Source: Neckera pumila
Lineage: Eukaryota; Streptophyta; Bryopsida; Hypnales; Neckeraceae
Length of the DNA stretch: 64,000 nt
Assembly (NCBI GenBank): GCA_963969595.1
Contig: OZ018418.1
Location: 749,001-813,000, forward strand
Direction of reading: 5' to 3'
Under the pieces are notes generated by a model. It saw nothing but the letters and a program-made list of their open reading frames with translations, searched no databases and was not told the DNA's origin. Position 1 is the stretch's first letter. Every line of letters begins with the position of its first letter. Made by a program: the position numbers and the translations under genes. Shown piece after piece: positions 1 to 31,789 of this stretch.

Positions 1-541
1 AATTCCAAATCCATAGGCGTATTGAAATTTTTCCCCATTTTTTTAAATTTGCCCTATAATCCAAAAAACCCCATTCATTTCTAGTATTTTAGTGAATAAA
101 AAGTTTGTGAGTCATAAAAGAAGACCACCTACATGTTCAAAAAAAGTTTGTAGAAGTTGGAAGTACTGAAATGAGTAATTTCAAATCCATGGGCACATTG
201 AAATCATCCCCCATTTTTTTTCATTTCCCCGTAATCCAAAAGAAATGATTCATTTTCTGTATTTTAGTGAATAAAATAGTCCTGAGTCATGAAAGAAGTC
301 CATGTGGATGTTGAAATTATTTGTGGAGAAGTCGGTAGTATTTAGAGCAATAGTTCCAAATTCATAGGCGCATTGAAATCATCCCCCATTTTTTTTAATT
401 TGTCACGTAATCCAAGTGAAACCATTCATTTCCAGTATTTTAGTGAATCAAAAATTTGTGAGTCATGAAAGAAGTCCGCGTACATGTTGAAATTATTTTT
501 TGTAGAAATTAGAAGCATTTAGAGCAATAGTTCCAAATCCA
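1..541. repeat. ~176-bp tandem repeat, left block
   Basis: Three units and the start of a fourth follow each other, with unit starts near 3, 179, 353 and 530. Each begins with a form of TTCCAAATCCATRGGC, then a CCCCATTTTTTT tract, a GTAATCCAA segment, a TTTTAGTGAATAAAA segment and a GTTTGTAGAAGT segment. The same repeat resumes at 17725, so the sequence in between looks like an insertion into a satellite-like array. The array begins before the window. Confidence 0.85.
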
Positions 542-1460
542 GGGTTGCAATTTGGCGAGCCTGGGAGTAGGAGCTTGTGAGCTTGTGAGCCTGTAAGCGG
601 GAACTTTTTGGGTTGAAAAAATTTGTGCAAAAATTGAAAGTTGATGCGAAGAACCTAAGACCGTGTGCATTGAATGAGCTTAGGTTCTATAATCGTGGAT
701 TTTAGGAAAAATTGTGGTTAAAGAAATTTAGGGTCAATTGTGGACAATGAAGGGTATTCCAATTTGGATGGGATTTTTTGGGCGTATAAATTAGAATTAG
801 GGTGTCTTATCATACACGAAGTGTTCTAAGAAGGGGTAACTAAGTAAATAAGCCGAAGATGTAGGCACTTGATATTTTCACCTATTGATATTTAGTCATT
901 GGAGATTCTTTTGGAGTGGTCCCTTTCTTCTTTATAAATTTCTTATAAAAATCAATACTTTCTCCTTACTAGAAGTACAATTGTGACCTCATGCCACTCC
1001 ATTTTGCTGGACACTACTCAAGTATGACTACCATTGTTTAGAGGTTTAGGGTAATTGTTTTCCCTTCTATTTTTTTTTTATACACAGAGAACTAATTGAT
1101 GGAAGGAGATCTAATTTCATTCCAGTTTCATTCCATTTTAGGGTTTATTTCTAACACTCAGTAGTTTGCAAAAGATAAATGTGTTACTCTCATTACCTCC
1201 AATTTTTGGCCATTACATATCGTTTTTCTTAATTGGGTGGGTTTAGAGTTACAGTATTCAAAAACTCCAAAATTCATCCTCACATTTCTCTAATAGGCAA
1301 ACTTTATCTCTGGGTTTTTTTCATATTGTTTTTCTTAATGTGAGCATATTATCAAACAAGAAGCAGATTGCACCCAAATCTAGCCATAAAACATCCAAAT
1401 CAAATCAACATAAAAGTAATACACATAGTTCAACTCATAAGATATGTCAATCTTATGAGC

Positions 1461-4400
1461 CTAAGTTGCGGTGGACTCGGTAATTGAAACCTCACTGGAA
1501 GATGACTCCAGAGTCTCTTCACCCTCAGAAGCTGAAACATCTAAGAAATGAACAACATTTGAAGCATATTTGGGTTTACGAGGTTTAGGGTCTCTACAAC
1601 CATGTCGTTCATACTGTGATGCCATCTTCTCAGCGTACACTGGAAGATCGTAAGACTTCTCCGGGATCAAGATCAATCTTTGTATCTTCTTCAGCCGGTG
1701 AGTACCGGTCACTCCTTCGCTCCTTTGAATACCACAAATCCAAGGATTAGATCCTTTGAATTCATTATATGCAGCGTATATTAGAAAGAGAAAAAAACAT
1801 GTCATTGCAAAATGGAACTTACTTACTAGGTCTAACATTGCGTGTGAACACCATCGGTTCCACGTGCATGGCATCGAGACCGAGAGTTGCAACAGTTTCT
1901 ACCGGAGCTTCTATCGCTCCTTCCCATGGAGTGGCTATCTTCATTGGTTCAAGAACCATAATGAAGATATTGAGGTCCTTCTCCAAGGCCACAATATGTC
2001 GTCTGGTGCCCCGACATGCAGTAATCGAAGCACCTACAAAACAAACATGTGGAGATCAAACTTTCATTACATCTACAAACAAGTACACATTTCACTTTAG
2101 GAATTTTTTATAAAAGTGGAAACAAACTTGTAGCTGCGATGCAGTCGAGAACTATGTCTTCTTCGTTAGTGCAACCTTCAGTGAAGAACTGGAGGAACCT
2201 TGCATCCTTCTCCGGTGGCCCGCGCCACGGCCATTTGGATTCCGGCTCTATCATCATTGTCTTCTCTGTGATATAATTGATGGCCATGTCCTTCCTCTGC
2301 AAGTTCCAATGTGCTTTTGTCATGGCCGCGGTCTACCTGAATTTGAACTGTGAGATCCCTTTGTCATCCAGATCCTTTACGAACAGGGTGACTCCGAACT
2401 TCACTGTCTGCAAAAATGAAAGCAAAATGGTTAGTGCATGTAAAAATGCCGTCGAGGCAATTCACATTCACTTTGAATATGTAATAAAAAACTCACCGTT
2501 TCGCCGGCTTTCAATCCCGACGCTAGATCCAATTGGTTGAATGCCAACCACTCTTTCTTAAACTTCAACTTCTTGAAAACCTTCTGCAACCCTGCAAACA
2601 TACTCCGCGATTGAACACTATAGGAGTGAAACACCAGAAGGCTGCTGTTGTCTTCTAAATAGTCCTCAGCAAACTGGAATGCACTTTGCATTCCCTTGAA
2701 GTTTGGATCTGAGTTCCACGACGGAACGCGCTTCTCAGAGATGAGTGGAACGGGAAGGTTCTCCGGGCAATCATTGATAATTAGATCCACGACAGGATCT
2801 CGGGTCACCTCACGGTCCAATGAGCGAGGCCTTCCCTGATTTACCTGCAGTGAGAAAATTGTTCACGTCGTTAGACAGTATGACCGTGAAACACCAATTC
2901 GTTGAATAACACATTAAAGCTGCAAAGAGAACTTCAAGGTCTAGTATGTACCCTGCAAATGAAGTCCATGACTTCAATATAACAATTCGGTGATGAATTC
3001 GCCGACTCCTTCATGATATTGGCGATGGAGACGTTCAAGATGAGTTCCTCCGTCTTGACGTCGTCATCGTCAAGCACCACGACTTGCGTGCCTTGCGTCA
3101 CCATATCCTCCGTCCACTCTGCAAGAACAGCCTTCCTCTTCAGCCCGCTTTGGCTTCCCTCAACCAACTGCAAGCTCTGATCGACCGCGGATAACATTGG
3201 AATGACAACTGTGTCACCTTCATCTTTCTTCTTCTCCTTTGCCTTGGCTTTCTCCTCCTTCTCCTTCTCTTCTAACTTGGCCGCACGCTCTGCCTCTTTC
3301 TTCTCTTTGTTCACCAAAGCAACTTGGAGACGAGCCGCTTTCTCCTGTCAGCGTGGTCCCTCTTCGCAATTGCCTTCCTCCTCTTATCGTCAATGAGTCC
3401 TACAAACTCATCCACGTTCAGGTCAATCGCACCGAGGCCCTCCAAAGAATCCCATAGTTGTTGCTCTGATGGGTGAGTGTAGGAAATCGGGCAGTCAATA
3501 TACCATCCTCCGCCGCTGAGATGAGCCGTGGTAAATGTCCGAAGTTGATTCGCCGTGTACATGCAACTCGGAGAACTGCGGTCCAAAAAATTCGAAAGGA
3601 ATAGTGGAAGGTCTGCCCTTGGGATTGCTCCTTTTCCTTCAAGTTCGAATTTGAAGTATCTGCAACAGAAGAGACAACAGACATGAAGGTAGAATTGGGA
3701 GAAATCGACTTAGAGAAAATACAACTTCTTTCTCACATACTTCTACCACAAATCAAGAATTATAATCTATTTAGAAGTTTGAGGTCAGGGAATTACATTG
3801 TGAAACTCTGACGGGACAAAAATGGGGGGTCCGTGGACAACCTCTAGAACATCCATCGGATCCAACGGATGTCCTAGAGTCTCCTTCCGAACCCTCTGGA
3901 TTTGATCCTTCCCTAACTTTTAGCACAACTTTTTTTAAAGAGTATGATTTTTGACAATAAAGAAGGCCCTCATGAATTTAGATAGTCATTTCAAAATGAG
4001 CATTATTAATACCTAGTATTGGAGACATATCGGAAAAGAACTCTTCGCACTGCCTATTGGGACCCCTCTTGACTGCTGAAGTTGTCGCTTTTCTTGAAGT
4101 AATTCGCTCCTCTGAGATGGGGCAAGAATCCTTGATCCCAAATCTTCCTCCTCCAACCTTCTAGATACTCCGTTAAGGTCTCTGGTTGCAGGGGAACCTT
4201 CATGTTGATTATGATGTTGTCCTGCCTAACAACATCATCATAGAAGTGCACAACTGCATCTTCAATCTATGACAAGATAAGAAATGTTAGCGATTACATG
4301 ATACAAAATGCATTGCAATTATTAAAATATTTATATATCCCATTGAAATGAAATATGGCCAATTTTAAAATTAAAAAATACGTCTATAGAGAAGTACTTA

Positions 4401-6584
4401 CCACAGCATACTAAACACAACAATTCAAGAAAGGACCAAGTAATGTCTCTGACACTGGTTTAAGCGGAAAGCATCTAGCCTCACGTGAAGGTTGTGAGGA
4501 ATTCCACCACTTGAGGAACTTGATTTTGTGCTCTGCCGTAGTATTGCATGTGGCAACCATCTGTAGCTTTTCCAGTGTCATCTCCGGGACCTCATTGGAG
4601 CTCCAATGTTTCTCAATTTGACCACAAAAATAACAGCATTGTCATTAGTATTCTGAAATTCAAATGAGATCAATGATAAACAATCAAAATGAAGGCCTAA
4701 AAAGCACCTCTTGTAGAAAACTAGGCGTATTAGCTGGATGGGCCACCGCGACCAGCTTAGACATTTTGATATTGACTTTGCCGGCTTTCTCATTTGTTCC
4801 AGCTCTCATTGCCTTTGCAAGTTCCTCTGGGGTTCTCTCCTCTTCTGGCGTGATCTCGTTATACCTTGGACCCGTTGCATCTGCGGATTGGGCAATCTCT
4901 TGCTGCACAAGTGGAAAAAAAATTTCATATTCAAAATAGTAAAACATGGCCGAAATCAATAGAATAATAAGGAAAGAATGACAGTTCACGTATATTCTTA
5001 CCTGGAAAACAAAGGATGTGAAGACTTGCTGTGGCATAGCATACCAAGTTTTCTTGGGTTTATGGGAACCACACATTCGGACCTCTGACGGCCTCAACAT
5101 TTCCTTGAACCGCTCTATAGGAAGGAGGCCATATTTCTGCACCCTGTATAACGTGTGCACCAAATTGTTCTTGACATGCGAGTCCTCGGTAGACCTGGAG
5201 AGTACACAATAACACAAACCATATTTCTTCAATTTACCTGATAAAAGTTGCAGAATTTCTGAATAACTGAAAATAAGTTGAAAGTGAAGGTTTAACATGG
5301 GGTGATCACTCTCAGGGTCCGCTAGGTACTATGTGCATTCAGATTTTAGACCTTGTATCATATGTTCAACAATTTCAATAAAATGATAAGAAGATAGTTT
5401 GAATAAATTTTCCTCCTTTGACAATTAATGTTCTAAATTATGGATAATATTATTAGGTATTGATAATTGCTGATTAACTCTTGAAATAAATAGACACATT
5501 CTGGAGCTCAAAAACACTTCCACATCTCTATTATATACAAGAAAATATTTTCTAAAAAATATATACAAGAATCTTCTCAAATATATGTCAGAATTGATAG
5601 TTCATATTGTTTAAACATTAATGTTTTAGTCAGCTAAATATTTTCTATAAGTAAATTAATTGAGAAACATGCAATTTCATTTCATTTTAGAACCATCTCT
5701 AGAAATCCCTTGATATGATATTTGAACTTGGATTCTTTGGAATTACAAACATATAGCCATTATGGAACAACACTCAAAATTCTAGGTCAAAATCATAGTT
5801 CATATATAAGTAAATGTATTAATTTTAATTACAAAAAATGCAACAATTTAAATTCAACAAAAACAAGTTAAAAATAAAGTACTAAATGAAGGAAACAAGA
5901 TTCTTACTTGTTTATGTCATGCATTACATGCATGACGAGCTCGGTCTTGCCTTTTGTATCAAGAATGATTGAGTCAACACTATAGTGCCACTCCTTATCT
6001 CTAGGGTGCTTCCTTGTGATGTAGTTCATCCATGCTATGAATCTGTGATTACCATCACAGACATAGAACTTGAGGTTCTTCAAGAACCTCAATTCCTGTA
6101 TGGACTCGACATGGGCATTGAAAATGGCATTTCCTTCCTTCCACAATGGACTCCACTTCTCCATCTCCTCTACCGTGAAGTCTGAGCTTTCACCGCCTTC
6201 ATCTGTGGTGGTGACATAGAATACTACAGCTCCATCTCGGTAACCATTGGTGAACTTGTGCTCCAAGAAATCAAGGTCACAGGAGAGGGTGGGCCTCACC
6301 ATGGGCATTGGTACCATGCGACAAAGCGGGATTTGAAGACGGAATAGGTGATCCGACTTCATCCGCAGTGATGCAATTATGTTGACGGAATCCACCTTGT
6401 GGTACTGTCGTAGATCGTCTTCCAGCAAGTCTTTGCTGTCAGCCTCCAACACATCATCGGGCACAAGTTCCTCCATCTCTTTACCTTCTTCTTCACCTAA
6501 AATATGTGGTTGGGAGGACTCTCCGGTGTTTGGAGTTTCGTGAATGGTATCTTCATGCCAAAGGTTTGTGGGAGTCACATCCAT
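1461..6584 (-). pseudogene. ParB-like plus amino-methyltransferase-like fusion gene (decayed)
   Basis: The exon model on the minus strand is 6584-5908, 5194-5002, 4902-4708, 4611-4402, 4266-4013, 3659-2952, 2844-2497, 2407-2128, 2033-1827 and 1753-1461, about 1,120 codons; most borders have GT/AG signals and compatible phases. Exon 1 has an acidic stretch and then a ParB/sulfiredoxin-like segment centred on CDGNHRFIAW (6062-6030). Exons 7-9 follow the order of beta-class N4/N6 DNA methyltransferases: motif IV VVDLIIND followed by CPE (2793-2761), a strand LLVFHS, then EKDARFLQFF, motif I IVLDCIAAT and the acidic VALEKDLNIF. Motif IV reads DCPE where DPPY or similar is expected, so catalysis is doubtful. 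ParB domains fused to such methyltransferases are common in bacteria and phages. In-frame TAG codons lie at 4413-4411, 4056-4054 and 2335-2333, and a one-base frameshift lies near 3345. The last exon ends in a Ser/Glu-rich tail. The gene could be read together with the exon block upstream (6798-10300). Confidence 0.55.
3824..3895. repeat. 72-bp hairpin element, intronic copy
   Basis: It starts GGGGGGTCCGTGG and ends in the near complement GAACCCTC. The two arms can pair through CTCTAGAACATCC and GGATGTCCTAGAG, with centre ATCGGATCCAACGG. It lies in the intron between exons 4266-4013 and 3659-2952 of the ParB/methyltransferase-like gene. It belongs to the same hairpin class as the units at 8300-8946 and 14788-14861. 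Confidence 0.7.
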
Positions 6585-8299
6585 CTGCAAGTTCAGATCA
6601 AAGAACTAACCGATACCCACATACTTGCATTCATAGAATTGAAGTTTCAAGCAAGAATAAATAAATAAATCCAAGGAAAAATGAATGCATTTAGGTTCAA
6701 TCATTTGAAGGTTCAAGTGTAGGTTTGCAAATTACATGTATTACACATTCAAAGGTCCAAAGCAAGAAATTCCAAAAATGATTCCACTCAAAGAAATTCA
6801 GTCAATTTGGACATCTTCTTCTGAGTTAGAGCTCAAGTGGATGAAAACAGGTTCTCCTATAACCTGAACACTGCTACAAGTGCACTGACAAGTCTCTTCC
6901 TTCATTGGACCATCAATGGTAATGGATACATGACTGCTTGAGCTATATTCCGTTTCCAAACTCTCGGGAGACATAAACTTGTCCGGACGGTTTCTAGCCA
7001 TCTCAAGGATCAAATCAAGACGCCTACGTTTTGCTTTTGGTGTGAGGCTTAGTTTCCATTTTGCTACTCCAGGGTCACTGACACTACTGAGCACAGAACT
7101 CTCAAAAGCATCAAATGCATAGTCAGTTGCGTCCATCACATCCGCAAAGCTTACCAAGTCCTCTTCATCAACTTCATCTTCTTCATCGCCTTTCTCTTCT
7201 TTGGAATCGCTAGGGTCCACGACATTCTCCTGCATTGGTACTAGTGGCTAAGAAAGTCTTGCTTCATAAGTCTCTGTATCAATAGGAGGCATGAGAGTGG
7301 GTGAAGATAGGTCTTGTTCACCTCCAGCCTTTTGTGGATATGCAACATTGCTAGATTCAGAAATCAAGAAAGATTTTCATGTTTTAGAAAACTTAGAAAT
7401 CGCCACACATGGACCTTGCTCTTTACGTTGACAAATCAACTTATATCACATGGAATTTTTTGACAGTCCTCACCAATATTCCTTTGAAATCTTAATAACC
7501 GCTATTAGAAAATTGGAAATGGATTCAAACTTTGTATTATAAGGACATCGCAAACCAAAGCAATAAGAGAATTTTCATCTATGATTTTCTTTAAACATGC
7601 TTCAAAAATATTCAATTGGCTATCAACAAAATTTCATGAAGCACCTCAATTGCCAAATCTAGAGAATTTGTAGATGAAAGATGAAATAATGAGAGATAAA
7701 CTCTTTATCCATAACAATGAAGAACTCAAGTTCTGAAACTAAAAATTCGTCTAAACCTTCAAGAAATGATGATTGCCATGATTTGAAAAATTGATGTCAC
7801 CAATATCTATACTTGTGAAGGATTACTAAGTGCATTTGAATTTATAAAGCTCAAAATGTATTGATAAGAAAGCATTCAAAAAATCTATGATTTCTAGCAA
7901 GCCTTCATAATTGTAGATGCAGTCCTGTAATTTTGTATATTTTAATCGAAGGCTCAATTTCAAATTATTGAAATTTTTTCTAATCCTCCAAATTTTTTTT
8001 TGGTACAGAGTTATAATTGAATCCAAAATTTTTATTCAAATCTCGAAATTCCTTTCAAACCTTTGATATCTACCTCTGAGTTCTACTATGTTTGTACCAT
8101 TAGAATTTACAAAGTTCCTCTAAAATGTCTCTGGAAGCTCTAAAATCTATAGAAATGTACTAAAATCTTCTAAAATCTACAAAGCTGTCTCTAAATCTTT
8201 TGAGAGCCAAAGAAGTCAATTGAAACCTTCAGAAATCTACAGATACTCAAAGTTTTTATTTGAAATCAACAGAAACTTGAAAGGGGTGATCTTAAATCA

Positions 8300-8946
8300 A
8301 GGGGTCCAGCTGAGTCACTCTAAGATACTGTCGGATCCGACGAAGGTGTCGTCTGACTGAGCTGCACCCCCTAGTTTTTGATTAGTTTGAGGAACCCGAT
8401 CAAGAAATAGTGAAACCATAAATGGACGCTGAAATCAAGGGGTCAAGCTGAGTCACTCTACAATACTGTCGGATCCGACAAAGGTTTCGGACGACTATGC
8501 TGCACCCCCTAAAAAGCAAAAAGAATGTGGAACTCGATCAACGAACTGTGAAGCCAACAATATTTTTGAATGCACGTTCAAAAACGGGGGGTCAAGCTAA
8601 GTCACTCTAGCGTATTGTCGAATCCGACGAAGGTTTCGGCGAACTGAGTTGCACCCCCTTAAAAGCGAAAAGAATGAGGAACTGGATCAACTAACTGTGA
8701 AGCCAACAAAATTTCTGAGTGCACGTTCAGAATCGGGGGGTCAAGCTGAGTCACTCTTGCGTACTGTCGGATCCGACGAAGGTTTCGGCTATCTGAGCTG
8801 CACCCCCTAAAAAGCGAAAAGAATGAGGACGAATTATGAAGCCAACAAAATTTTTGAATGCACGTTCAGAATTGGGGGGTCAAGCTGAGTCACTATTGAG
8901 TATTGTCGGATCCGACAAAGGTTTCGGCCGACTGAGCTGTACCCCT
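8300..8946. repeat. Five tandem 72-73-bp hairpins, ~140-bp period
   Basis: Hairpin units lie at 8300-8371, 8438-8510, 8586-8659, 8735-8808 and 8874-8946. Each starts with GGGG(G)TCAAGCTGAGTCAC and ends with ACTGAGCTGCACCCCC, which pair with each other. A palindromic TGTCGGATCCGACGA core is followed by AGGTTTCGG. Spacers share AAAGCGAAAAGAATGAGGA and TGAAGCCAACAAAATTT. Spacing is 138-149 bases. Confidence 0.85.
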
Positions 8947-9099
8947 CCAAAAGCTAATTCAAGATTTCCACAAAACCCAATTACAGAGTACTCATCCAAT
9001 GTTGACAATCCCGTTCGGCGAGCATCCGCAATTTGGATATGAGATTTCGAGGCACAAAAAGATCAATGTCTACTTTAGTATGTAGAAATCAAGCTTACC

Positions 9100-9900
9100 C
9101 TTGCACACTCCCGGTGTTTGTCCTTGCTCGGACCTGCCTGAAACCTGCTTGCTACCGGCGGTTATTGACTCAAATGAATTCGAAAGAGTTTTGAATCATT
9201 ACCTGCGACTTGGACTGTGATCTTTTGGAGCGGTTTTGAGAACCTGAAGTTGCCCCTCTCGCCCTGCTACGCGTACTCCTTGTCATCCTCCTCTGCTCGA
9301 GAAGACAACAAAATTACAAAATGTGGCGAGTTGTGAAGGAGAGACTGAAAAAATTGAAGAGATTAACATGATAATGGAAATGTTAGCCGCGGCCTGGCTT
9401 CACACACCAGTGTTCATTTCGGATAAGCTTAGTTTGAGATCCAGCTTAAATGGCGCAATTACGGAAATCAGCGGATGCTCAAAATAGAATGGAACTCCTC
9501 CAGTTATTGGGCTATCAGGGATACATTAGAGATCGCGATGTTATCCTTCGAATCGACAAAGTCCATGAACGCCAGGTCGGGACCCAGTTAATTCGAAAGT
9601 TACCCAGATTCCTAGCCTGTGCGATTAGGTATTTGCTCGAGATTTACTGAAAAAAGTTTGGTATTCACGCGGTGGCGCGAGCAGGTGGAGCGTCAACTGG
9701 GCAGTCAATCATGGACCGTCAATCCTACAGGGAGGAGATGGACCTTTGCTAGTTGACAGACCCAGCCGGTTGTCCGAGTAGGTGTACCGACCGACCAGGT
9801 GACTGTCACTCGTAGATCCTAAAGCCGTGGCTGAATCATATCTACCCCCAAATACATTGCATCTAAAAGCAATCGACACCTCAGTATGTTGAAAAGACTC
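9100..9900. other. CpG-richer, GC-richer island
   Basis: Compared with the AT-rich sequence on both sides, this stretch holds many CG dinucleotides (for example GAGATCGCGATG, CACGCGGTGGCGCGAG, CGACCGACCAGG). It includes exon 9292-9203 of the minus-strand gene. A plus-strand open stretch at 9450-9650 (66 codons) shows no recognisable domain, and I do not call it a gene. It may be an unmethylated promoter-like or recently acquired segment. Confidence 0.35.
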
Positions 9901-10312
9901 AGTCAAGTTACCACAAACCTTTATTACAATGTTGATCTTTGAGGAACTAATTGGAGAATAGGCTAATGAGATAATGAAAAGCACAAAAAAAAGCTCTTAC
10001 GTTTAGGTTGTCCTCAATCCTTCCTTTGCGGTGTGCATTTGAATTCTCTGCAAACATCTCTTGTCTTGCCTCAACACCATCACTAGGGGCATCCTCTTCT
10101 CCAGCACTAATCTGAGCTTCAAATTGAAGAATTCTTCGAAGATCGCCGGGTGTCGTCTCAGTAGCTTTCGGCGAAACTCTCGGTCCTCTTGTCATCCTGG
10201 ATTGTCTCAAAGCCTTGGTAGATGAAAAATAAAGCGAACCACGTCTCCTTCCTCTCTTTCTTGGTTTTACTCTAATCAACTCAATTACTTTGCAATCTAC
10301 AAGCATGAGCAA

Positions 10313-12471
10313 CCAAGAGAATGGAGGAACCTAGTCGCACTCATTGACAGCAACTGAAGAAAAATGAGAACCATAGGAATGATTTTGAAATGCAAGAGTG
10401 CCCCTTGTTATATTCAGTGAGGTTGTACGACTGACACCGTCACATGAAGTTCAATCGTAATGAGAAACGTGTTAATAGGCTGTCAAAGTAGATGCAGATG
10501 GCAAGTTCATAATCGTGCCGCTCAAATAAAATATGTACAAAACGAAATGACTTTTGGGGGCTATGTCAATATTGAAGACTAAACCACAAAATTAATAAGC
10601 AATGATTTTAATACGTAGTCAGATTCTTTACGCACGAGCTTCTAGAATCTGAAAAATAATGCATTCAACATTGTTGCATTTCATAATGCCCTCAACTCTG
10701 TATTACAATAAATTGTCACAACCTAGGCATTTGTTTATTTCTTTCAAAGAATATGACAAGTTATAGACATATGAGTCTTGGGATTGAAAACATGACCTCA
10801 TTATAATGTTGATTACACTATGATATATGAATTTTTAAGAATGGTACTATCAACAAAATGTTTGTAGTGTTCCAAAGTGCAAAAGAAGTATTGCTTATAC
10901 ACATAATGATATTCCATAATTGAAGTGGTAATGTTTGAAATTCTTGTTGGGAAATGATAGACACATTTATCCCTAAGGTCCACTGTCAAAGTTTTTGCAA
11001 AATAGATTTTGATTTTCTACATATATATCCAGTAAATGAAATAAGAATCATTCCAAAAATTTCTAGAAGAAACGCACTTCATTGTTTTTACATTAAACTT
11101 TCAAGAAGAAAATGTGGGTTCAAAATTGAAGACAAAACTACATTGTTTATAGCTTTTGCAAAAAATTACATCATAGCAGTCTGAATTGTCAAATTTTGCT
11201 AATAAGATATTATAGACTTGTCTAAAATTATTATTGGGAAATTCTAGTGAATGTACAAAATAATGAATTCTAGAAGTTTTAATTGTATGAAGATGCTTAT
11301 ATATCCCAAATAACTTTGAGTGTCCGGGAACTTCTCATTAGCACTCCAAATAAAATTAAACAAAACTTCCCACGTAATGAATAACATTATTTATGAGAAA
11401 GAAATTTGCAGAAGATTTATATTGACTTCCTCACATTTCTTTTGGACTAGTAAGTGCACTCGTATTTTGCTTTCTGTGCCCAAGTACTTGCGCATTTGAA
11501 TCTAGTAAAATTAAAATTTTATATTTGTAGAGCTCTTCCAAATGAACAAAGCCTCAAGAATTTTGAATGATTGTCACTAAAAATTAAAACCGGAAGAGTT
11601 TTCTCAAACTCAAATTGTCTAGCAAAGGTACAAATGTTCCTTCAGGTGTTAGTGCATTTATATATTATGATTTAAAAAATATGTATTTATCTTAGAATAT
11701 GTATATGCGCATTAATTTTTATTTTTTTATAAGTTGAATTGTCTACATATATACAAATTATATACATTTGCATTGGACTAATATATATTACATGTGGTTA
11801 TAATGTGGACCAAATATTAAAGGAATTGCGCAATTAATCCTAGTTGTAAGGAGAATTTCCAAATCTTTAATTCTACAATTTATGATATTGGATTTGAATG
11901 TGCTATGATTTTGAATGTTACCTTAGTAGAATATGAGAAGAAAATTCAATAAAAATTGGTCAATTTTTCTTTGGTATATTATAAGGAATTCGTAGCAAAG
12001 TGATAAAGAAAAGCTGAGGTCATGTTCAAAATTCAAATTGGTTTTTACGGATTAGTTTTTTCCTACTTAGGTCCAGTATACTGTGCATTCGCACGTGTAC
12101 ATATTTATTGTATTTTTTGTTAGAAATGTTGATAAAAAATCCTACTCTACCGTCTCCACTTATTCTCTGTAAAGTATTCTTATTTGATTCCCTAATAATC
12201 AAGGAACATTAATTCATTATATTCCTTTGCCATATAAAGCACTCAATTCAATTCAGAAGAGATATGAAACTTTTGGTAACAATTATAGAATCCTTGCAAT
12301 CAATATCTTCAATAGAAAAATACGGCATTAAAGATTGGCTGCACAATGAATACATAGGACTAGCCAAAATGAAGCTATAGAGGATCTCCAATTATAGAGG
12401 ATTGAAAGTTTGGTTCTTTACCTTATGTATTTGTTGATTGAATTTTTCATGTTGTTGGAGTGTCTCCGCAG
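10313..12471. other. AT-rich divergent intergenic region
   Basis: This gap separates the minus-strand genes from the MULE transposase on the plus strand. It is AT-rich with scattered short open frames only. Promoters for both directions would be expected here, but I see no distinct motif or repeat. Confidence 0.4.
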
Positions 12472-15400
12472 GTTTCAGCAATGGCTTTGCTTAGAGTTGA
12501 TGGTCATGACATTCCTCTTGTGTTTCCAATAGTAGAAGGTGGACGCGCTAGAGTTCCTTGTCACCTTTTGCACGTCCGCTTCAGATTTGTAGAAACCTCC
12601 ATCTATGTTGAGGAAGAAAAAAGGTCGGAATTAGGTGAAGTGGTACAGTCTGTTCCAGTTGCGACATTGGTGGAGGATGGAACGCATTGCTGGTACCTTG
12701 CTCCTGGAAACTATAGAGCATACGGACTTCCACTCTCTATTCTAGATGCATCTACACAAATCCAGAGTCGCCAATCAGATAATTCTACTGTTGATATGCC
12801 GGTCAATCCTCATGCCTTGTCACCCAGTACACCTAGAGGAACTCTATCTATCCTACAGATGCCTGTAGTACTTCTTGTTGTAAAAGAGGAGAGATTAGGT
12901 CCAATTATAGAGTTGTCTACAAAATCTGAAGGAGAGTCTTCCAATGTCAATGCTGAGAATCAGAGTTGTTCTGTCCAAATTGAACCAGGCAAGATGAATT
13001 TTGTGAAATTAGTATCTGGAACCCCGTAAAGGAGTCTCTCTAATTCCTCATTGTCAATATAGCCTTTGCAACCACTTGTACTAGCAAAAGCAAGCATAAT
13101 GGAGTGTCTCAAGAGACTTGCCAGTATGCATCGCTCTCGAAACGAGTTGTCGACAATGGATCTGAGCACTGTGAAGCACCAGCAGGTTCCATTTCTTCCA
13201 CCAGTATTTGACGGGGATGTCATCTTTGAATTGCCTCCTTGTAGGTCGTCTTCATCTTCATTGGGGGCCAAGAACTTGGAAGGAATGGACAAGCGCTATG
13301 ATGGACATCCGTGGTGCAAGCTAGTGACCACGAACATTCACAACGCCGACAACCTCAAATTCCATAAGTCATATTGTGCTGGCCATCTTGTCTGTGAGAA
13401 TGCCAGTTGTAAGTATTTGAAGAGAGCTTCAAAGCAAAACGAAACTGAATGGAGTGGCTATATTGTGTTTCCTTTTATTGTTGGTGGGTGTCCCCCAAAA
13501 GAGTCTACCCTAGTTTGCAAGGTCTGCAAGATCGCACCTACGTGTCTTGGCGCATGCAACGCTAGGATATACTTTGCATACATAGATAACCCAGAAATGA
13601 GTAGGGCTGCTATTCATTTTGGAGAGCATGGTCACCCTGTTGCTAAAGGCATGTACAAAGATTCTACTAAAAGGATTTGCGGACTCATTGCGGAGCAAGT
13701 GGCCAAAACACCCACGGCCACAAATTCCGCAATCACTCTTGCTGCTAGTAAAGACTTTCTTGCAAGCCACTTATTTCACAATGGAGAAGGAGAGAAGAAG
13801 ATGTTGAAAGTGGAAGAAATGGAAGAGGTCATGGACCACTTCCAGTACTTGAGTAGTCCAAGTATTCGCAACATGATCTCTTCTTTTTGTTCTAACAATC
13901 GAGGAGGGATAATCGACAACATCATGACCATAAAGAAAGAGGCAAAGTTTGAGTTCATACATGACAGCCTCTTCCCAGGCCAAGGCAAGGAAAAGGTATA
14001 CATTTTCAAGATGCTTATGGAAGGACCAGGAAGTGGAGTCGACCTCGTAAGGCGCATGCAACCGGGAGGAGATTTGCAAAATGCGTGGTTGATGTTTGAC
14101 CACGTGAAGCGCGTGAAGGAATGGACCACAATGGCCTGCCACGTGTATGATACTGAGTACCAGAAGGTGATGACTATTGCAATGTGTGATATGCAATCCG
14201 AAGATATCGAAGTTCAAGTACAGTTTTGGCGGAGCTTGAACGCCGTCATGGATCGCCACGGAGTGGGAAACCCTAACTTCAAAGGATTTATGGCAGATAG
14301 CGCTATGGCCAATTGGAATGCGGTCCGCATAGTCTATGGTAGTGGTTCCGCCGATGTTGAAATGGAGAATCGTGAGAGGACATGTTTGTTGCATTGGAGT
14401 ACCTCTCTTCACAAGCATACGCAGAAGTACATCAAGGAAGCATTCCAATAGCAACACATTACATTGTGCAAACAATACAAGGATTCAAAGAATATGGACC
14501 AAGCTGAGGTCCGTTACCTTGCAATACGGTCTTGGTGGTTGTCGTCTGGAGCTGCCAACGAAGAAGCTCTACATCACTTAGATCACTGGCTGGCATTTTG
14601 GCATTTCCGCTACCGTCAATGAGGAGGCTTCATGGACATGGTGAGTGAACCTTGAATTTGAATTTGTAGAAGTATTTCAATTTCTAAGGCTCAACTTGTT
14701 GTAGTATGTTCTACCTATTTCATCGAATTTTATTTTATTAATTTTATTTTATTAAATTTTTTTTTTTTTTTTTATGGTACCAAAAACAAGGGGTCTTGGA
14801 AACATTGTTATAGCATCCGTCGGACCCAACGGATGTATTTGACATGTCACCAAGACCCTCTGATTTCTGTTCTTTGAAATACAGAATCCAATTTTGGTAA
14901 TAGAAAATGTTAGAGGGTTTTTTTTTATAGGAGAATAAGATGGGAGAAGTATGCTTTGTTATTTCAGTAGCAATATATTTCTACATGTATTGTCATTATA
15001 AATCCCTTGCCTTATGATACTACAGAACCAATGCACCGAAATATTTCAGAAGTTCCATCTTTCTACAATTCTGAATGTCATTTACTGTTCACTAACTATT
15101 TTACCATCTCCTGTGGATTTTCTAGAAATTGAATTTGGAGGAGATGGCGGACTTGCCATCTTGCAATTTATCCGAAACGGTGCATAACAAGTGGCTACAA
15201 ATGTCCGAAAAGTGAGGAAACAACTTGTTTGATGCTACATGTGATGACAGTATTCGCGCCTGGATGCAAATGACAAACTACCATACATACCTGAAAGGAT
15301 ACACATTGGAGTCAGGGCCGTCAAAGGGGGAGCTTAGGTTGAGAGCTACTAGAAGAAGTGGAGATCCCAAGAAGATTGCAGAGGCATTAAACACCTTGCC

Positions 15401-16514
15401 TGGAGCAGAGGGTGTGGGAAGCAAAGTACCACACTTAGAAGGAGAAGAAATATTCGAGAGCACAAAGAGGAAGTTGGATGTGCCCATTGGTGATGCCGGA
15501 GACTCACACAGACCGGACAAAATTAATTTCTCTCAACCCCGTGTGAGAACAAGGTCCAACACAACTGTTTCTCAGGCTTTTGGAGATAAAGGTAAACAAC
15601 CTCAAACAAATCCTGCTCAACACGTTACGGTAGCATTTGAAAGTGACTGTGATACATCAAAATGGCACATTGCGAGAATCAACCACAAATCTAATGCAAG
15701 ATGTCAAGCTCAACAACAAAGATCCAACATCAAGTGTACCATTAAGATTGCAAAAGGAAAGAAGGAAACTCCAGCTCCTACCTATCGTAGTAGAAAAGAA
15801 GAGTATGGGAGCAAGTGAGAGGTGGTGGTTGATTTCTGGTTCTGCTGAGATGACATTGAACGATGCGTGAAAGGTACAAAGCGGAAGTGGGTTCTGGAGT
15901 GGCCAGAAGTGCTGGAGGTTTGGCCAATTCTATCGGGAACTAACCTAAATTGAGAAGAGACATTGTTGCTGCAACATGCAGGATTTCGCCTCCAGGAACG
16001 ACCCATATTGTCCCCACGTCAACTGTTCAATATGTCAAAGATTTTCAAACCTGTTTTGTGTGACCAACCTCCACTGCGGAACTCGGACGTGTATCCTACT
16101 GTGAGGAACAGCAGAGCCATTTGAAGGATTGCAAACGCACCTACTGCCGAACAACGGAACAAGTGGGAAAGTGCAGGTAATGTTAGAGGGCAAATTATAG
16201 GAGTAACATTGCTCCCTTTTCCAGGCCTTGGTGCAATTGTAGAGTTAGAGATAGGGTCAGCCTTTAACAAAAATGCATACCAAGTTACATTGGGCCAATT
16301 CCCGACGTGCACATGCCCAGACTTTGTGAATATGGCAATTTCTGCTATAGGAGGTCGGCAGCAATACGTGAATTGCAAGCACTTGTACTATTTGTACAGG
16401 TACTTTTGCAAAATGGATGTCAACGAAGACAAATTCATTCATGCACCAAGTTATAGCTTCAATGAATTGAAGCTACTGCTAGTTCGAGCTGGAATGATCA
16501 CACTTCCAGAATAG
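12472..16514 (+). pseudogene. MULE transposase with SWIM zinc finger (decayed)
   Basis: Exon 1 (12472-14640, acceptor CTCCGCAG, donor GTGAGT) joins in frame to exon 2 (15126-16514). Landmarks in order are a Cys/His DNA-binding region (YCAGHLVCENASC, CKVCKIAPTCLGAC, HFGEHGHPVAKG), the transposase core with FDHVKRVKEW and FKGFMADSAMANWNAVR, HWSTSLHKHT, and WLAFWHFRYRQ followed by GGF. After these comes a SWIM finger CTCPDF...CKHLYYLY near 16,305-16,400. This order is typical of plant Mutator-like transposases that bind and cut their own terminal repeats. In-frame stops: TAA 13027, TAG 13060, TAG 14449, TGA 14620, TGA 15213, TAA 15941 and TGA 16122. A TGA at 15868 sits beside a small deletion. 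Frameshifts lie near 15800, 15875 and 16030. It cannot make an active protein as it stands. Confidence 0.85.
14788..14861. repeat. 72-bp hairpin element in the MULE intron
   Basis: The ends AAGGGGTCTTGG and CCAAGACCCTC pair, and the centre is CATCCGTCGGACCCAACGGATG, written here as GCATCCGTCGGACC plus CAACGGATG. It sits in the intron 14641-15125 of the transposase gene, next to a poly-T tract (14759-14773). It is of the same class as 3824-3895 and the array at 8300-8946. Confidence 0.65.
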
Positions 16515-17664
16515 GCATGGCCACATTTTCCAATGTAATTCAATTGTAATGCACTCATTTTTATATATTACAATTGAAATGATTTGATGCATACTATTGT
16601 GGATTTAATGTCCGGATCTATATCCAATCTACTGTTCGTTTTGTCCCTTTTCTTTATAATACTTTCCTTTTTTAAGGGGACCTTAACTCTTGATTCCAGT
16701 CCTCCCTTATTTCAGCTTTTCTTCCATTTCTTTTGAAATCCAGGACGTCTTCTAGTATTTATAGATTTTAATTTTCACAAGGTACCAAGATAATCAAAAT
16801 TGGCAAACACACTATTTGAAACCCACCTAATGCACTTCATAATTTTTTTTTATCAAGTATGTAAGCAGATGAAGGAAGAGTGACAAGACCAATGTTCCAG
16901 GGTTCCTATTCATATGTCCCATAACAATTGGCATTTTGGAACATGCCACTATAAGAGGTTTCATGTTCCATGGTTATATATGGCAGTGGGCCCTTTGGGG
17001 GAATAGCCTTTTTCCGTGATTATGCGGAGAATTATATTCCCCAAGGGTTCTCTACCATTTTGTTTAATATGATAAAACAAAAATGTGTAGATAAAAACAC
17101 GTATAGAATAATAAAAAACATATATAGACTTGGCTTCAATTGGTTTTTGGGCTTTCTTTATTTGCTTTCAAAATCCATTCCAACTGTAATTCCTTAAGCA
17201 TAGTCCCAACAATAAATCACTTGCGGTCTCAACTTCATCTCTCATTTCTTCTTCTATACTTTTTTGGACAATATTGCAAGCACCTATTCACTTTTCTAAT
17301 TTTTTTAGAGCTTACATTTTCTAAATACCTTAACCTCAATGAGAAATGACTCCCGCTCTCAACTTGACCCCTCATTTTTTTTCTATATTTCTTGGGATAA
17401 CATCGTGGTCACCCCCACTTTTTTTTTTTTTTTGGAGCTCAGGTTTCTTAAGAACCCTAAACCCATAAGAAATGACTCTTGGTCTCACAATGTAGTGGAT
17501 TTTTTCTACTACAAAAAATCCAAGAAACACATAAAATATTTAATAATCCACGATCATAGGTTATATAGTTATAGATCCCAATTTTACCATAAACAGCAAA
17601 AAAAAATCATTTTTTTGAATTTTTTTAGCAAAAAAAAAATTTGGAGGCACAAAAAAGGAAATTT
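16515..17664. repeat. Transposon 3' flank with a ~128-bp tandem repeat
   Basis: From 17214 three unit starts of the type AAATSACTYNNGGTCTCA lie at 17214, 17344 and 17470, each followed by a CTCATTTYTTYTTCTATA segment and, in the first two, by GAGCTYA...TTTCT. Before 17214 I see only AT-rich sequence without a gene. Confidence 0.55.
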
Positions 17665-17724
17665 TTTTCTTTAGGCTCTAGGCTCACAGGCTCACGGCTC
17701 CAAGCTCGCACGCTAGCGTCATTG

Positions 17725-18000
17725 GTTCCAAATCCATGGGTGCAGAAATCATCCTCCATTATTTTTAATCTGCCCTGATAATCCAAAAGGAACCATGAAC
17801 TTCCAGTATTTTAAAGATTCAGTAATTGCAAAGTTATGACAAAAGTCCACCAACATGTTCAAATTTGTTTTGTAGAAGTTAAAAGTATTTAAAGCAATGG
17901 TTCCAAATCCATGATTGGACGCATTGAAATCATTCCCCATTCTTTTTAACTTGCCACGTAATCCAAGAACATCATATTCATTAAAATGAGAGATTTTCAG
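17725..18000. repeat. ~176-bp tandem repeat, right block
   Basis: About one and a half units of the repeat seen at 1-541 are present here, with unit starts at 17725 and about 17898. They include GGTTCCAAATCCATG, the CATTCCCCATTCT tract and CCACGTAATCCAAGA. From 18001 to 18590 the sequence is AT-rich and holds nothing I can name. Confidence 0.8.
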
Positions 18001-19535: not shown

Positions 19536-21970
19536 AACTATTAAGGACCCACTTCAGCATTTGAACACGGATGGATGCTATGTTTTCTATCCATCATGAT
19601 CTCCGTATGTTGTGCTCTGTCCAAACCTTCTAAGTCTTGCCATTTTTGTCTAGGGCAACTCTCACTCCACTTACTATAAAGTGCATTAGAGACGTCAAGC
19701 GCCTCACTAAACTACATGAACTTGGTTTATCCAACTTTTTTGAATGGCTCAAGCGCCCCATAATATTATTAAACCGAAATACATCCAATGCTAAGGGCTT
19801 TGCTACATGCAGGCGCCGTATCCAAGGAATAAGATTTTCAACTAAGAGCTTGTCTGTTGCTCCATACCCTTCATATGACCATTGGTCAAGCAAAACAACA
19901 TTCGCGGGATCATTTGTAAAGTGCTTTGCCGGACTATCATCCACAATAATAGTATTGTCCCTCGAGAACATAGAGTTTGGCAATTTGTACAACTTGCTCA
20001 ATGGTTTTATGAACAAGTCTTTCTTTGTTCCCTTCACCTTGTAATTCACTAACTTTGCAGACCTCCCCTTGCACTTGAGAATGTTGCACTGTTCTTGTCC
20101 TAAGACATAAGTTGGAGGTTCTATGGCACTAAACAAGTGATTGAAAATGCATATGGCTGTGGACCTCTTCATGGAGGTCCACACCGAGACGTTTGCAAAA
20201 GAGGACAACTTCCAAAGAAAGGTCTTGTAATGGGGACGAAGAATGACTCTTTTCAAATTGAAGAAGAAGTGTTCTAATTGAGAGGCAGCCTCATCGGATT
20301 TGATGTATTGTTTCTCTCTTGCAAGATTTTCCTTATCCTCACATACACATAGCACCCCAATCAGATCTAGGATGACATGAAGCCACTTCTGTGCAATCGC
20401 AGACTTGAATGGATGTTCCATGCTCTCCGCTTGAACTATTGTCTCACTACTACCTTGTTCCAAATATATAGCAAAATTTGTAGACAATTAATCAAGTGTA
20501 CTGTCTATAACATTTTGAGTACTGAAGCATGGTGGTGTAAGAACTTTGAGTATATATAAGTTCATAAACCTAAATCTAAGTTCATCACACAAAAGGAAAA
20601 GAGCATAGTGGAAAGAATACGCATTGAGTCCCATGCCACATGATTTGGAGAAGATACGACTATTGTTGCTAGTATTTTGGACGCGGGAATGTGAATCTTC
20701 ATGAGTTCATGGTCTGATATATCGTCTCCACCTAGGCCCACTGATGTCTCCGCAGCATTGACGAGATTCTTCTCGTGGTCGGTTGACTCAAAACTAGTCA
20801 CAACTATGTCTATCAAAGAGTAATCATTTGGATGCAATGAGTCATTGCAGGCAGACTCACAAACAGGGACTTGAGCAAAGCCGACAGCATCCAAAGCTAA
20901 AAGTGGCATACAAGTGGAACCAGAAACTTGGCATGCGAGGTTGGCACTGGACATGAATCAAATAGTAAGAAATATATTTATTACATAAACTCTCACAGAG
21001 AGGTACATCTACAATATGTTTAGCGCATAACCATTGGCCAAAATATTTGCATGAAAATTAGACGTTACCAAAAGACGCATGCAAATAGAAACTGAACTTG
21101 AAACAAGTTGATTGAGAGTCACAGAGTCATAGGGAACAACCTCGGGAAATATCAATCTCAAGGCCCTGTGATTGCTTCACCTCCAAATCCTCAAGGTCTC
21201 AGTCATCCCTCAACATATGGTCATGAATAAGAGATGATGTCTACGGCTGTGCAATAGCAACATCTAATGTGGTCTTCAATCCAGAATGGTTTTTTAAATC
21301 GGCCTAGACATGCCTCGCATTGGTGGCTGTTCCGTGAGGTTGGTTGTCAATCTGCAACTGAGGAGACTGCGCTGTCGGTTTGTGTGTGAGCATAGGCCGC
21401 GCTTGGAAGAAAAACTCTTTCACAAGATCCTTCATCATCTCCTTAGTCTCCATGGCCAATTCCTGATGAGCTCTCTTATCTTCCTTGCGCTGCTCCAGAC
21501 AAAGCCTCTTATTTGCCTCATGATTTTTCCAAAGCAAATCAACTACCCACTACTGGTTTGGACCCGTCTTTGGAGTCGAAGCTGCCTTTCTCTTCTTCTG
21601 AGTCTGCCGTCTTTCAAAGACAGGACTTTGACCACGTTGTGCCGAGGTATCGGAGGAACCTCGCATGCCGCTGGTCTGTACAAAGCCGGCAGACCCTACA
21701 GCATTTGTTGGGGTCAACTCGAGTACAACAGGCTCCGTGTTCTCCAACAGAACAAGATTTTTGGTCAAATCTATAGCATTGTCATCTTCATTGCAAGCCT
21801 CACCGTCATCGATAATGATGGGCCTATGCTCTTTGCCTTTCCAAGAGGAGGAAGCTCCTCTTGAGTTCTTTTGCTCAATACATGCTTTATCAATGAAGTA
21901 TTTTGAGCCCAAAAAATCATCTCTATCCAAGTTCTTGGCTTGCACTACAAGTGCATCAAAGTCGTCATGA
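19536..21970 (-). pseudogene. FCP1/NIF-phosphatase-like gene (decayed)
   Basis: Exon block about 21970-21010 encodes a low-complexity region with a basic patch (QTQKKRKAAS) and a coiled-coil-like stretch (LWKNHEANKRLCLEQRKED). Block 20945-20610 follows after acceptor TGTCCAG. Block about 20450-19536 holds a NIF/FCP1-type HAD domain: HVILDLIGVLC (motif I, second Asp replaced), FNLKRVILRPHYKTFLWKL, VSVWTSMKRST (motif II) and NTIIVDDSPAKHF (motif III). Family members dephosphorylate Ser/Thr, for example in the RNA polymerase II tail. Here motif I lacks its second Asp, a variant found in some plant proteins of this type. In-frame stops: TAG 21552, TAG 21306, TAG 21243, TGA 21201, TAG 19632 and TGA 19596 (first base, minus strand). 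A frameshift lies near 21150. It may be the downstream part of the gene at 22193-24880. Confidence 0.5.
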
Positions 21971-29630: not shown

Positions 29631-29670
29631 AATGAGAGAAATATTGAAAGAAATGTTTACAAGCGTGCAG

Positions 29671-31789
29671 AATGCAAGGGGCAAAGGAGGACCAGGTTTG
29701 CACATGTTACCGGATCTTTCCTCTTGGGTATTGGAGGAGATTAGACGTGAATATCAATCGGGTATAGTTATCAATGCAGAAATGGTGGACACCAATAGGG
29801 GACCATTAGAGGTGGCTACAATGTATAAGTCTATGTACGCTTACAAAAACCATTTTAGAATTATTAGTGCCGAACAGTCGCTGCAAACAACTAATAGCAG
29901 AGTAGCAGCAACATTTAGGCAGGTATGCAGGAACGGAATTTCTGATGCAAATCAAATAGACGCTGCCATTGAGTACGTGGGCCATATAGAAGAGATATTG
30001 GAGTTAAATTGCAGGCGCCATTGTGTTGTAGTGCTAGTATGTGATTTTGTAGAGGCAAAGTACATGGGAGAAAACGCATCAATGATAAAGGATAAGTGGA
30101 ATTTTATTTTGGCAAACTATAGAAGAAGATTGAGTATTGTTTGTCGGGATAGCTTCACTTTTTGAAGCACTGTGAACAAGTTTTTTATTCAGATGCTAGG
30201 GAGTCTTCTGGTTGGAAAGTGGTTCTCAAGAAAGGAAATACAAGGTAGACAAGTCTTGCTGAATAATGAAGAGGACGCAAGGACAGAGTTGTCTAATATG
30301 AGGGACGACAAAGATTTTGAAGATTTGCGGCCTGAGAGGGAAGTCAGAGAAGATGCACAGGATGCAATTGTCACTGGACATGATGTAGTATTGCAGGAAA
30401 TTCTTGTTCCAGGAAGGCAAAAGAGAGTGCCAATTCGCCCCAAACGAGCTCGCCGTTGCACGGGAGCAGTACAAGCAGACAGAAGTAGTGCAGATGCCAA
30501 ATCTTGTGGCCGTGGCCGTCAACCTCAACAACAAGGTGACAGAGTCAAAGGATGTTGATGTGGCGAGGAAGGGGGCCAACAATCACTTGATGTAATCTGC
30601 GGAGAGAATTAGGGAAGAGGGAGCTCAAGGTGTAGAAGACGAAGAGAAGTCCGTAAAGATGTTGGTTAGCGGAGGGAGCGTTGTTGAACTAAAGTTTCAA
30701 GGAACATTAACCCCTAAAGGACCATTATCCCTTCGGGGGACAAATGGGATTTTGGGCAGGTACCTACGGGCTGAATTTTTGTTGTGATTTTTTGAAACTT
30801 TTTTTGAAGATAGGAAATCTACTAAGCTTCATGGGAATATAATTTTTTTTCAATCGATGCCTGGGAAAAAAATTTATGCCCAAATAAGCTCAAAACAGGG
30901 GACATCGGGCAGCCAAAAAAATTTTGCAATTTATTTTTTAAAATTTTTTAAAATTTTTTTTCTTATAGATTATATTTTTTTTTATCTGGGAAGCTTTGAT
31001 TCATTTCAGTTGGATTTGTTATGAGAAAGTTATGGACGATCCTGTTTTTCGAGCACTTAGAGCATCTTCTTGAAAAAAATAACTTGTAGGATTCATTTCT
31101 GAATGCAATTTTTGCAATTTTTCAAAAAAGAAAGTTCCACAAAGTCTAGTTTTTTTGCTAAAACAGTCTCACCATTGGGATTAGTGTTTTTTAAATCCAT
31201 ATAAAAGATATTAATATTTTAGATTTTCCTTCTATCTCGTACCTACTTCTACTTAATAATTTTTTTAATAATGAAAATTAAGTTTTTTTGGATTCTTTTA
31301 TTTTTCTAGACTCTCAACTCAATTCTCCACTATAAAGTTTAAAAGCTCAAAATTCTATAGTGCAAAAAATTAATGTTAAAAATGTTCAAAGTCATAAAAT
31401 TTAGTCACGCAATGTGCTGCAAAACTTGTTTTTTTCACTTCAAACGCAGATATCTTGCAATCTGTGTGGTCAACATTTCTGAAATTATTTCCACACATTT
31501 TCATACTAGTTAGGTATAAGATCCTACCGTTAGATATGGAAAAAAAACAATTTTCAATTTTTTTACTCTTTGCTATAGAAATGGCGATTTTGAGTGTTTT
31601 TTGGTAGAAAAAAGGTCTTGGTCCTTCAGGGATTAACGACCAGGAAGAGATCATACCTCCCAGTGTCGGCACTGTGCAGAGCTCAAGGAGCACATCTGTT
31701 GAATCAAATGCTAACGGCAATTAGTGTGCACAGGTGCATTATTGATTGAGGGTAGGTGGAATCCAAAAAATGGAATAAAATATGACAAA
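29671..31789 (+). pseudogene. Orphan C-terminal part of a CACTA TNP2 transposase
   Basis: After an acceptor GCGTGCAG the frame encodes LPDLSSWVLEEIRREY, MYKSMYAYKNHFRI, EYVGHIEEILELN, VVVLVCDFV and IKDKWNFILANYRRR, the order of the DUF4216-type C-terminal part of plant TNP2. It is the same exon as 47467-46581 on the other strand, and the two are clearly homologous. A TGA follows SFTF at about 30163. The expected CEQVFYSD and GWKVVLKK continue in another frame, so a base is missing. Further downstream a coding-like frame passes a TAA near 30593 and is split at the TTAA at 30707 by a 922-bp insertion; with the insertion left out it stays open to about 31789. The main body of the transposase is absent upstream. 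Confidence 0.65.
30711..31632. mobile_element. 922-bp TTAA-flanked element, copy A
   Basis: The element begins CCCCTAAAGGACCA and ends with the complement of TCCCTGAAGGACCA. It is flanked on both sides by TTAA (30707-30710 and 31633-31636). It has no coding capacity and is AT-rich inside. The interior (for example GAAATTATTTCCACACATT, ATAAGATCCTAC) is homologous to copy B at 40881-41803. TTAA target duplications and CCC-type ends are the mark of piggyBac-type elements, and with no transposase it would be a miniature non-autonomous copy. Confidence 0.75.

Follow-up and report, generated by a model that had tools for sequence, protein, structure and literature searches.

The window, that is the whole stretch of 64,000 bp analysed here, comes from the moss Neckera pumila (positions 749,001 to 813,000 of contig C11, OZ018418.1, in an assembly of 339.5 Mb and 18 contigs) and holds near its left end a DNA transposon of 17,185 bp, likely a Mutator-like element (MULE), in which a presumed transposase gene stands opposite to, and divergent from, a gene predicted to join a ParB-like domain to an amino-methyltransferase (MTase) fold. 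The initial annotation had already placed the latter gene inside a MULE-like element, and this was borne out, the element being larger than the interval noted at that time. Its limits were defined by comparison of the window copy with ten other copies fetched from the same genome, with which they agree. Both ends are kept in six of these 11 copies (window included), and all six are flanked by a duplication of 9-10 bp, in one case with one mismatch.

530..539, target-site duplication, left copy, 10 bp, GTTCCAAATC
540..17724, whole transposon, ends CAGGGTTGC... and ...ACGCTAGCGTCATTG
12442..14652, plus strand, first large block of the transposase gene, interrupted near 13030-13062 and again near 14450
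15126..16514, plus strand, second block of the transposase gene, with a SWIM-like CTCPDF...NCKHLYYLYRYF motif at its end
17725..17734, target-site duplication, right copy, 10 bp, GTTCCAAATC

Target duplications of Mutator-like elements measure 8-11 bp, usually 9, and the length found here fits that range. Together with the SWIM-like C-terminus of the transposase and with a CLLHW motif, both recognised by eye, it makes the assignment to the MULEs likely. No meaningful Pfam match was obtained for several reading frames of the transposase, the MULE profile included; rows for IpgD, FERM_M and similar profiles were judged to be due to chance. The main blocks of the element are 90-97% identical in eight copies, among them the 3-kb fragment C11_11M, and 81-85% and 74-86% identical in the more distant copies C3_37.4 and C10, respectively. 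On its left the element adjoins a tandem array of 175-bp units (3-541), and its right flank resembles such a unit. About 660 bp (10168-10825), possibly a nested insertion, are missing at the same place in copy C1_49.

Structure of the gene and spread of the family

The ParB-MTase gene (1461-6584, minus strand) consists of ten exons and nine GT..AG introns, in agreement with the roughly nine introns first proposed, and its spliced product spans 1121 codons. A further exon likely precedes them, since the divergent element L042 of the same genome has a similar frame with an aligned GT at its end (by eye), and since C3_37.4 and C10 lack the Met with which exon 1 would start.

6813..7235, minus strand, likely additional 5' exon, acidic (MQENVVDPSD...SNSEED)
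5908..6584, minus strand, exon 1, ParB/Srx-like domain, DGNHR at 6056-6042 (CDGNHR at 6059-6042)
5002..5194, minus strand, exon 2
4708..4902, minus strand, exon 3
4402..4611, minus strand, exon 4, with TAG at residue 422, where five sister copies have Trp
4013..4266, minus strand, exon 5, TAG at residue 496, also in C11_177k (Gln in four sister copies)
2952..3659, minus strand, exon 6, Lys/Glu-rich linker, frameshift near residue 614, also in C11_177k
2497..2844, minus strand, exon 7, motif IV region, DCPEN at 2772-2758
2128..2407, minus strand, exon 8, TAG at residue 887, motif I VLDCIAAT at its end (DCIAAT at 2146-2129)
1827..2033, minus strand, exon 9, HIVALEKD, which we take to contain the acidic position of motif II
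1461..1753, minus strand, exon 10, C-terminal tail, stop at 1461

The reading frame of the window copy is interrupted by the three in-frame TAG codons and the single frameshift listed above; as sister copies carry Trp at residue 422 and Gln at residues 496 and 887, each TAG lies one transition away from a sense codon. Both borders of all ten exons were found in six of the ten other copies, of nine exons in C11_177k and C9, of seven in C10 and of four in C11_11M. Stops or frameshifts are present in all 11 close copies (window included), some of which also have individual damaged splice sites. Copy C11_177k (C11:175400-195399), 0.57 Mb from the window copy, has stop 496 and the frameshift in common with it and yet different right flanks, so that a copy with a broken gene was probably still mobile in trans.

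Within the genome, the C-terminal 376 residues gave at least 167 matches and the ParB part at least 186, while the transposase core of copy C9 matched at least 102 places, all of those scored, out of 715 candidates. The layout was compared for 68 listed MTase rows (67 loci), 107 rows of ParB exon 1 and the 102 transposase rows in full; matches to other exons of these loci were excluded. At 45 of the 67 listed MTase loci, a ParB exon of the same strand lies no more than 12 kb upstream, and at 30 of them a divergent transposase is found upstream within 25 kb; a transposase is divergent downstream at none, and on the same strand once upstream and once downstream. Around the listed ParB loci a divergent transposase is situated upstream at 36 of 107 and downstream at none (same strand, one and two, respectively), and a partner gene was found at 41 of the 102 transposases. 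The misses (22/67, 37/67, 71/107 and 61/102) may represent truncated elements, unlisted matches or real absence. Gene, orientation and layout remain unchanged in elements whose MTase parts are only about 40-55% identical, and a long-retained component of the element, not a one-off capture, is what these comparisons of sequence support. As a separate observation, contig C11 (12.3 Mb, 3.6% of the genome) holds ten of the 67 listed MTase loci and may be repeat-rich, perhaps a sex-linked chromosome.

The two halves of the predicted protein and selection on them

The initial annotation had proposed a ParB/Srx-like segment and a beta-class MTase in a single gene. The predicted gene and the MTase profile matches agree with this; the ParB part is recognised by its motif and by weak structure matches, with no Pfam hit. 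The motif DGNHR occurs in 104 of the 120 listed database relatives of exon 1, and its N and H are invariant in 91 aligned rows (window exon and 90 of these relatives). It fits the G-x-H-R type, which we assume to be the conserved active-site motif of the ParB/sulfiredoxin superfamily. Structure matching with VIA-align gave weak scores, with 18 of the 19 rows shown belonging to Noc, ParB, sulfiredoxin, SbnI or SerK, and it is this one-sidedness that, next to the motif, hints at a ParB/sulfiredoxin-like fold of the N-terminal half. The ParB alignment profile retrieved only chance rows from solved structures, single-sequence prediction of exon 1 yielded no usable model (mean predicted local distance difference test score 41.2), and pattern and tblastn searches confirmed no relative among the viral contigs of IMG/VR. 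NCBIfam rows for the ParB exon of a divergent element (BlaEC, E 0.064; GogB, 0.1) were discarded as chance. A ParB-like subfamily of about 50% identity was also observed, with open frames of ~400 residues and few stops (C3:43.46 Mb, C2:7.75 Mb), and may be younger or host-retained.

The C-terminal half is predicted to adopt the fold of a beta-class amino-methyltransferase devoid of the usual active-site motif. Profile PF01555 matched copy C3_37.4 (E 3.2e-5, 24.4 bits, 190 of 221 profile positions) and copy C8 (E 2.5e-4, 21.5 bits, profile positions 111-219 only), both below the curated cut-off of 26.7 bits; among the five copies given, the window copy, C10 and the divergent member had no match, and for the window copy itself no Pfam match rose above chance. 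In addition, a match to CcrM (E 9e-4) was obtained, and in a tblastn search of a sister-copy MTase part against phages, where the best match was a DNA methylase (6e-4), 18 of 20 rows among the matches listed were annotated as methylase or methyltransferase. A relative from Ceratodon purpureus (KC19_5G032000, P0022; 38% identity over 66% of the query) carries a precomputed PF01555 assignment. A weak profile match (E 0.04) to the DpnA-like enzyme 5hek aligned DCPEN with DPPYN and kept motifs IV and I in order. The order of motif IV (DCPEN, exon 7) before motif I (VLDC[IT]AAT, exon 8), as read at the outset, is that of the beta class. The full-length broken product matched no protein at E 0.001 among 7980 scored candidates, whereas alignments of the separate halves did retrieve protein relatives; for the MTase half, no prokaryotic or viral relative was confirmed by pattern and tblastn in GTDB species contigs or IMG/VR. 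In database relative P0029 the linker and motifs IV and I share one frame of 444 residues, and no single frame joining the ParB exon to the MTase exons occurred among the sequences compared; the presence of both halves in one protein is a prediction from the exon structure.

Motif IV could be read in 33 sequences, namely 12 from the same genome (window, ten copies and L042) and 21 out of 44 database hits (a script read 20 of these, and P0014 was read by eye), and the catalytic [DNS]PP[YFW] was found in none. DCPEN and DCQEN are the common forms, and DCEED, DCWEN, DCPNN and DVPDG also occur; the decayed copy C1_49 reads NCLKN. Motif I is DCTAATG or near it, with single changes, wherever the sequence holds it. 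As DPPY is missing from all 33, among them relatives at 31-47% identity, DCPE is ancestral and the loss of DPPY old and shared. These observations do not support the suggestion that the element once methylated DNA. Decay, offered as another origin of DCPE, was rejected for the motif, for the database relatives and the divergent member share D-[CV]-x-[ED/N] without the aromatic residue and the domain has been selected, even though the window copy, taken as one, has decayed. The entire genome was also searched for a canonical copy with PF01555, without any match, in an exon-by-exon mode that split domains would escape.

The ratio of nonsynonymous to synonymous substitution rates (dN/dS) over the whole gene was 0.201 between the window copy and C3_37.4, 0.185 between C10 and C3_37.4 and 0.227 between the window copy and C10. 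All pairs with C10 or C3_37.4 fell between 0.185 and 0.254, apart from those with the fragment C11_11M (0.276 and 0.378). Between subfamilies, dN/dS was 0.10-0.17 for the ParB exon and 0.27-0.32 for the MTase exons (upper limits of the 95% bootstrap intervals for the latter, 0.42-0.50); the short C-terminal exon was noisy (up to 1.35). Three close pairs reached 0.44-0.56, as is expected once decay after insertion adds to the divergence. Judged from these ratios, the MTase half is less constrained than the ParB half, yet not free, and the MTase domain is kept under purifying selection without DPPY.

One may still ask if the gene is a passenger, captured from the host or from a bacterium and functionless for the element. 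All 11 close copies are broken, a broken copy could move in trans, and MULEs often capture gene fragments (PMC13317346; this and the other papers cited here are drawn on as excerpts). The constancy of gene, orientation and layout described above and the dN/dS of 0.19-0.23 between subfamilies, however, make such a passenger very improbable.

The copies also carry a record of their silencing. C>T and G>A changes make up 61-75% of the private substitutions in seven close copies (window 600-7400), and the per-site rate in CG and CHG contexts is 2.4-7.6 times that in CHH (H being A, C or T), which matches the trace of deamination of cytosines methylated by the host.

Palindromic sites and the possible role of the protein

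The element contains seven sites within two mismatches of GTCGGATCCGAC; 100 dinucleotide shuffles gave a mean of 0.08 and a maximum of 1. They occupy three places, namely intron 5 of the ParB-MTase gene, a transposase intron and the spacer between both genes, where five iterons follow each other with a period of 138-149 bp:

3823..3898, ParB-MTase gene, intron 5, palindrome with ATCGGATCCAAC at its core
8298..8373, first iteron of the spacer, GTCGGATCCGAC at its core
8436..8511, second iteron of the spacer, GTCGGATCCGAC at its core
8585..8660, third iteron of the spacer, GTCGAATCCGAC at its core
8734..8809, fourth iteron of the spacer, GTCGGATCCGAC at its core
8873..8948, fifth iteron of the spacer, GTCGGATCCGAC at its core
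14787..14862, transposase intron, palindrome with GTCGGACCCAAC at its core

The remaining 46 kb of the window contain one such site, in a context unlike that of the element sites. Sites at all three places are also found in six of the ten other copies (C11_177k, C8, C5_16M, C7, C3_37.4 and C1_49); in C1_30 and C9 palindromes were seen where the fetched stretch covers them, or part of them, and C10 has no core within two mismatches but only an intron-5 palindrome with the core CTCGGCTCCGAG. The divergent element also has sites (placed by hand): intron 5 contains three of them, the transposase intron and the spacer one each. Genome-wide, 90 exact GTCGGATCCGAC cores were counted versus nine for the reversed pattern; of 50 listed cores, 41 have a listed element gene no more than 10 kb away and nine do not, such surroundings making up 1.3% of the genome.

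Each site centres a palindrome of roughly 76 bp, the arms of which pair outside the core at 12-30 of 32 positions in 74 sites (window and copies, many of them close copies; one C8 match outside the element was dropped and the C10 site added). In 15 representative sites, 315 of 450 cells were paired, versus 214 (standard deviation 13, maximum 273) when the right arms were redealt 1000 times, and two-sided, compensated changes were found in 91 cells versus 35 (standard deviation 8, maximum 68). Few letters of the sites vary as little as the central GATC and the A at +5.

We tentatively propose, with somewhat less than even confidence, that a MULE-like element encodes a selected protein, predicted to be of ParB-MTase fold without DPPY, which would bind the element's own GTCGGATCCGAC-centred palindromes and keep the element from silencing. 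Its anatomy is well supported; the function we infer. Methyltransferase folds read short palindromes, and as the core holds GATC and the fold has been selected with its catalytic motif lost, the ParB-MTase protein is the candidate reader. With the aromatic residue of motif IV replaced, mostly by Glu, the fold would no longer methylate but could still read DNA, perhaps still with its cofactor, given that part of motif I and the acidic residue of motif II remain. ParB-like relatives bind nucleotides, and some assemble on DNA; the ParB-like domain, perhaps with a nucleotide, might thus help in loading or spreading. Bound to the palindromes in the introns and in the shared promoter spacer, the protein would exclude or reverse host cytosine methylation, as VANC does in VANDAL elements, and copies devoid of this protection would become methylated and decay, the state in which the window copy is found. 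A bolder version, in which a clade of plant DNA transposons has made a bacterial ParB-methyltransferase fusion into a 'parS-like' identity system of its own and the dead MTase fold reads GGATCC-centred palindromes, with ParB-like spreading to shield the element, is conceivable but doubtful.

The palindromes could instead serve transposase binding or replication, or be hairpin elements or intronic RNA hairpins from which small RNAs arise, with the ParB-MTase protein acting elsewhere, for example in host chromatin or in transposition, which it might assist as a nickase of ParB type. Several observations favour this reading. Palindromes persist at transposase places where no partner gene was detected; they were present at 11 of 23 places with a partner versus two of 36 without (C1-C6), a contrast that follows clade as much as partner and so does not discriminate. 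Furthermore, the arms are conserved as palindromes and not as a fixed sequence, and the ParB-methylase of Bacillus cereus nicks DNA (PMC5512222). The main doubt is that the transposase, and not the ParB-MTase protein, may use the sites. On the other hand, the constancy of GATC and of A at +5 is what a read sequence would leave, with the reservation that many of the 74 sites are close copies, and the placement in introns and spacer resembles that of VANC sites; on balance we consider these other uses of the palindromes rather unlikely.

An enzyme that is still active despite a noncanonical motif IV would add N6-methyladenine or N4-methylcytosine (4mC) to the element, as a self mark or as a block on host silencing. 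Such activity would suit the conserved and selected fold with its partial cofactor motifs and also the GATC within the core GGATCC, GATC being the site of DpnA-type enzymes and the closest solved structure being named DpnA. It would have to operate without an aromatic residue at position 4 of motif IV, absent in all 33 readable sequences, and with a motif I reading CTAATG in place of the usual PFxGSG. Eukaryotes do use bacterial-type N4 methylation, as in the rotifer N4CMT (PMC8885841) and in the 4mC of Marchantia (as told in PMC8566409), but N4CMT is inactive once Ser and Tyr of its SPPY are replaced (PMC8885841), and we regard an active enzyme as improbable.

Beyond the element, the window contains a minus-strand fragment of a tnp2 transposase (51600-52907; PF02992, E 6.9e-55), presumably of CACTA type, and, just outside the element, an NLI-interacting-factor-like phosphatase domain (19630-20487, minus strand; PF03031, E 7.9e-13). 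Two frames (29632-30165, plus strand; 46700-47305, minus strand) share similar stretches (SMYAYKNHFRIISAEQS and SMYAYGYHFRVKSAERS) and, by eye, form a second repeat family.

Relation to known systems

Anti-silencing by transposons is known from VANDAL elements, and we know of no case in which a bacterial-type methyltransferase fold is the presumed DNA reader. Among the matches listed from the open-licence PubMed Central literature, no description of a ParB-methyltransferase gene in a plant transposon was found, and a review from 2026 on how plant transposons capture genes names VANC and does not contain 'ParB', 'methyltransferase', 'moss' or 'bryophyte' (PMC13317346).

In its presumed mode of working, the proposed system is closest to VANC of the Arabidopsis VANDAL MULEs, an extra MULE-borne gene with motifs in introns and upstream, in tandem repeats of changing copy number; VANC21 binds a short motif in such repeats, which lie within introns in two genes of its element and upstream in a third, and reduces methylation at these places (PMC5735166). 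The VANC motif is YAGTATTAY in one orientation, as opposed to a 76-bp palindrome here, the excerpts mention no ParB or MTase fold, and anti-silencing has been shown for VANC and is only proposed for the moss element (PMC5735166). Fusions of ParB with a methylase are known from bacteria and phages, where the Bacillus cereus ParB-methylase and the phage polyvalent proteins likewise combine a ParB/Srx domain and an adenine methylase in one polypeptide (PMC5512222); these are prokaryotic, whereas the gene described here is eukaryotic, intron-bearing and transposon-borne, and has no DPPY.

Genes of DNA-methyltransferase type under purifying selection are also carried by retrotransposons, either as C5 methyltransferases, with a Ka/Ks (equivalent to dN/dS) below 0.2 for KnitGypsy-Dnmt3, or as the Dam-like enzymes of DIRS elements (PMC5890265). 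In contrast to those, a DNA transposon is concerned here, with a beta-class fold, an altered active site and palindromes of its own. The rotifer N4CMT is another bacterial-type amino-methyltransferase resident in a eukaryotic genome, but it is a host gene with SPPY and a chromodomain and acts against transposons (PMC8885841), while the moss gene belongs to the transposon and has lost the motif. Finally, fungal DNA transposons with TET/JBP genes carry an epigenetic accessory gene with proposed anti-silencing function; their cargo is a dioxygenase acting on 5-methylcytosine, of unrelated fold and in other transposon superfamilies (PMC12730594).

Were our proposal true, a DNA-modifying enzyme would have become a device for self-recognition, with sites and protein travelling together in a large plant repeat family, and this in a plant lineage for which DNA methylation other than 5-methylcytosine is already debated; the GTCGGATCCGAC palindrome lends itself directly to a test of binding. 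Among the known transposon-borne epigenetic accessory genes, the ParB-MTase cargo represents an additional variant, with a combination that none of the listed literature was found to describe.

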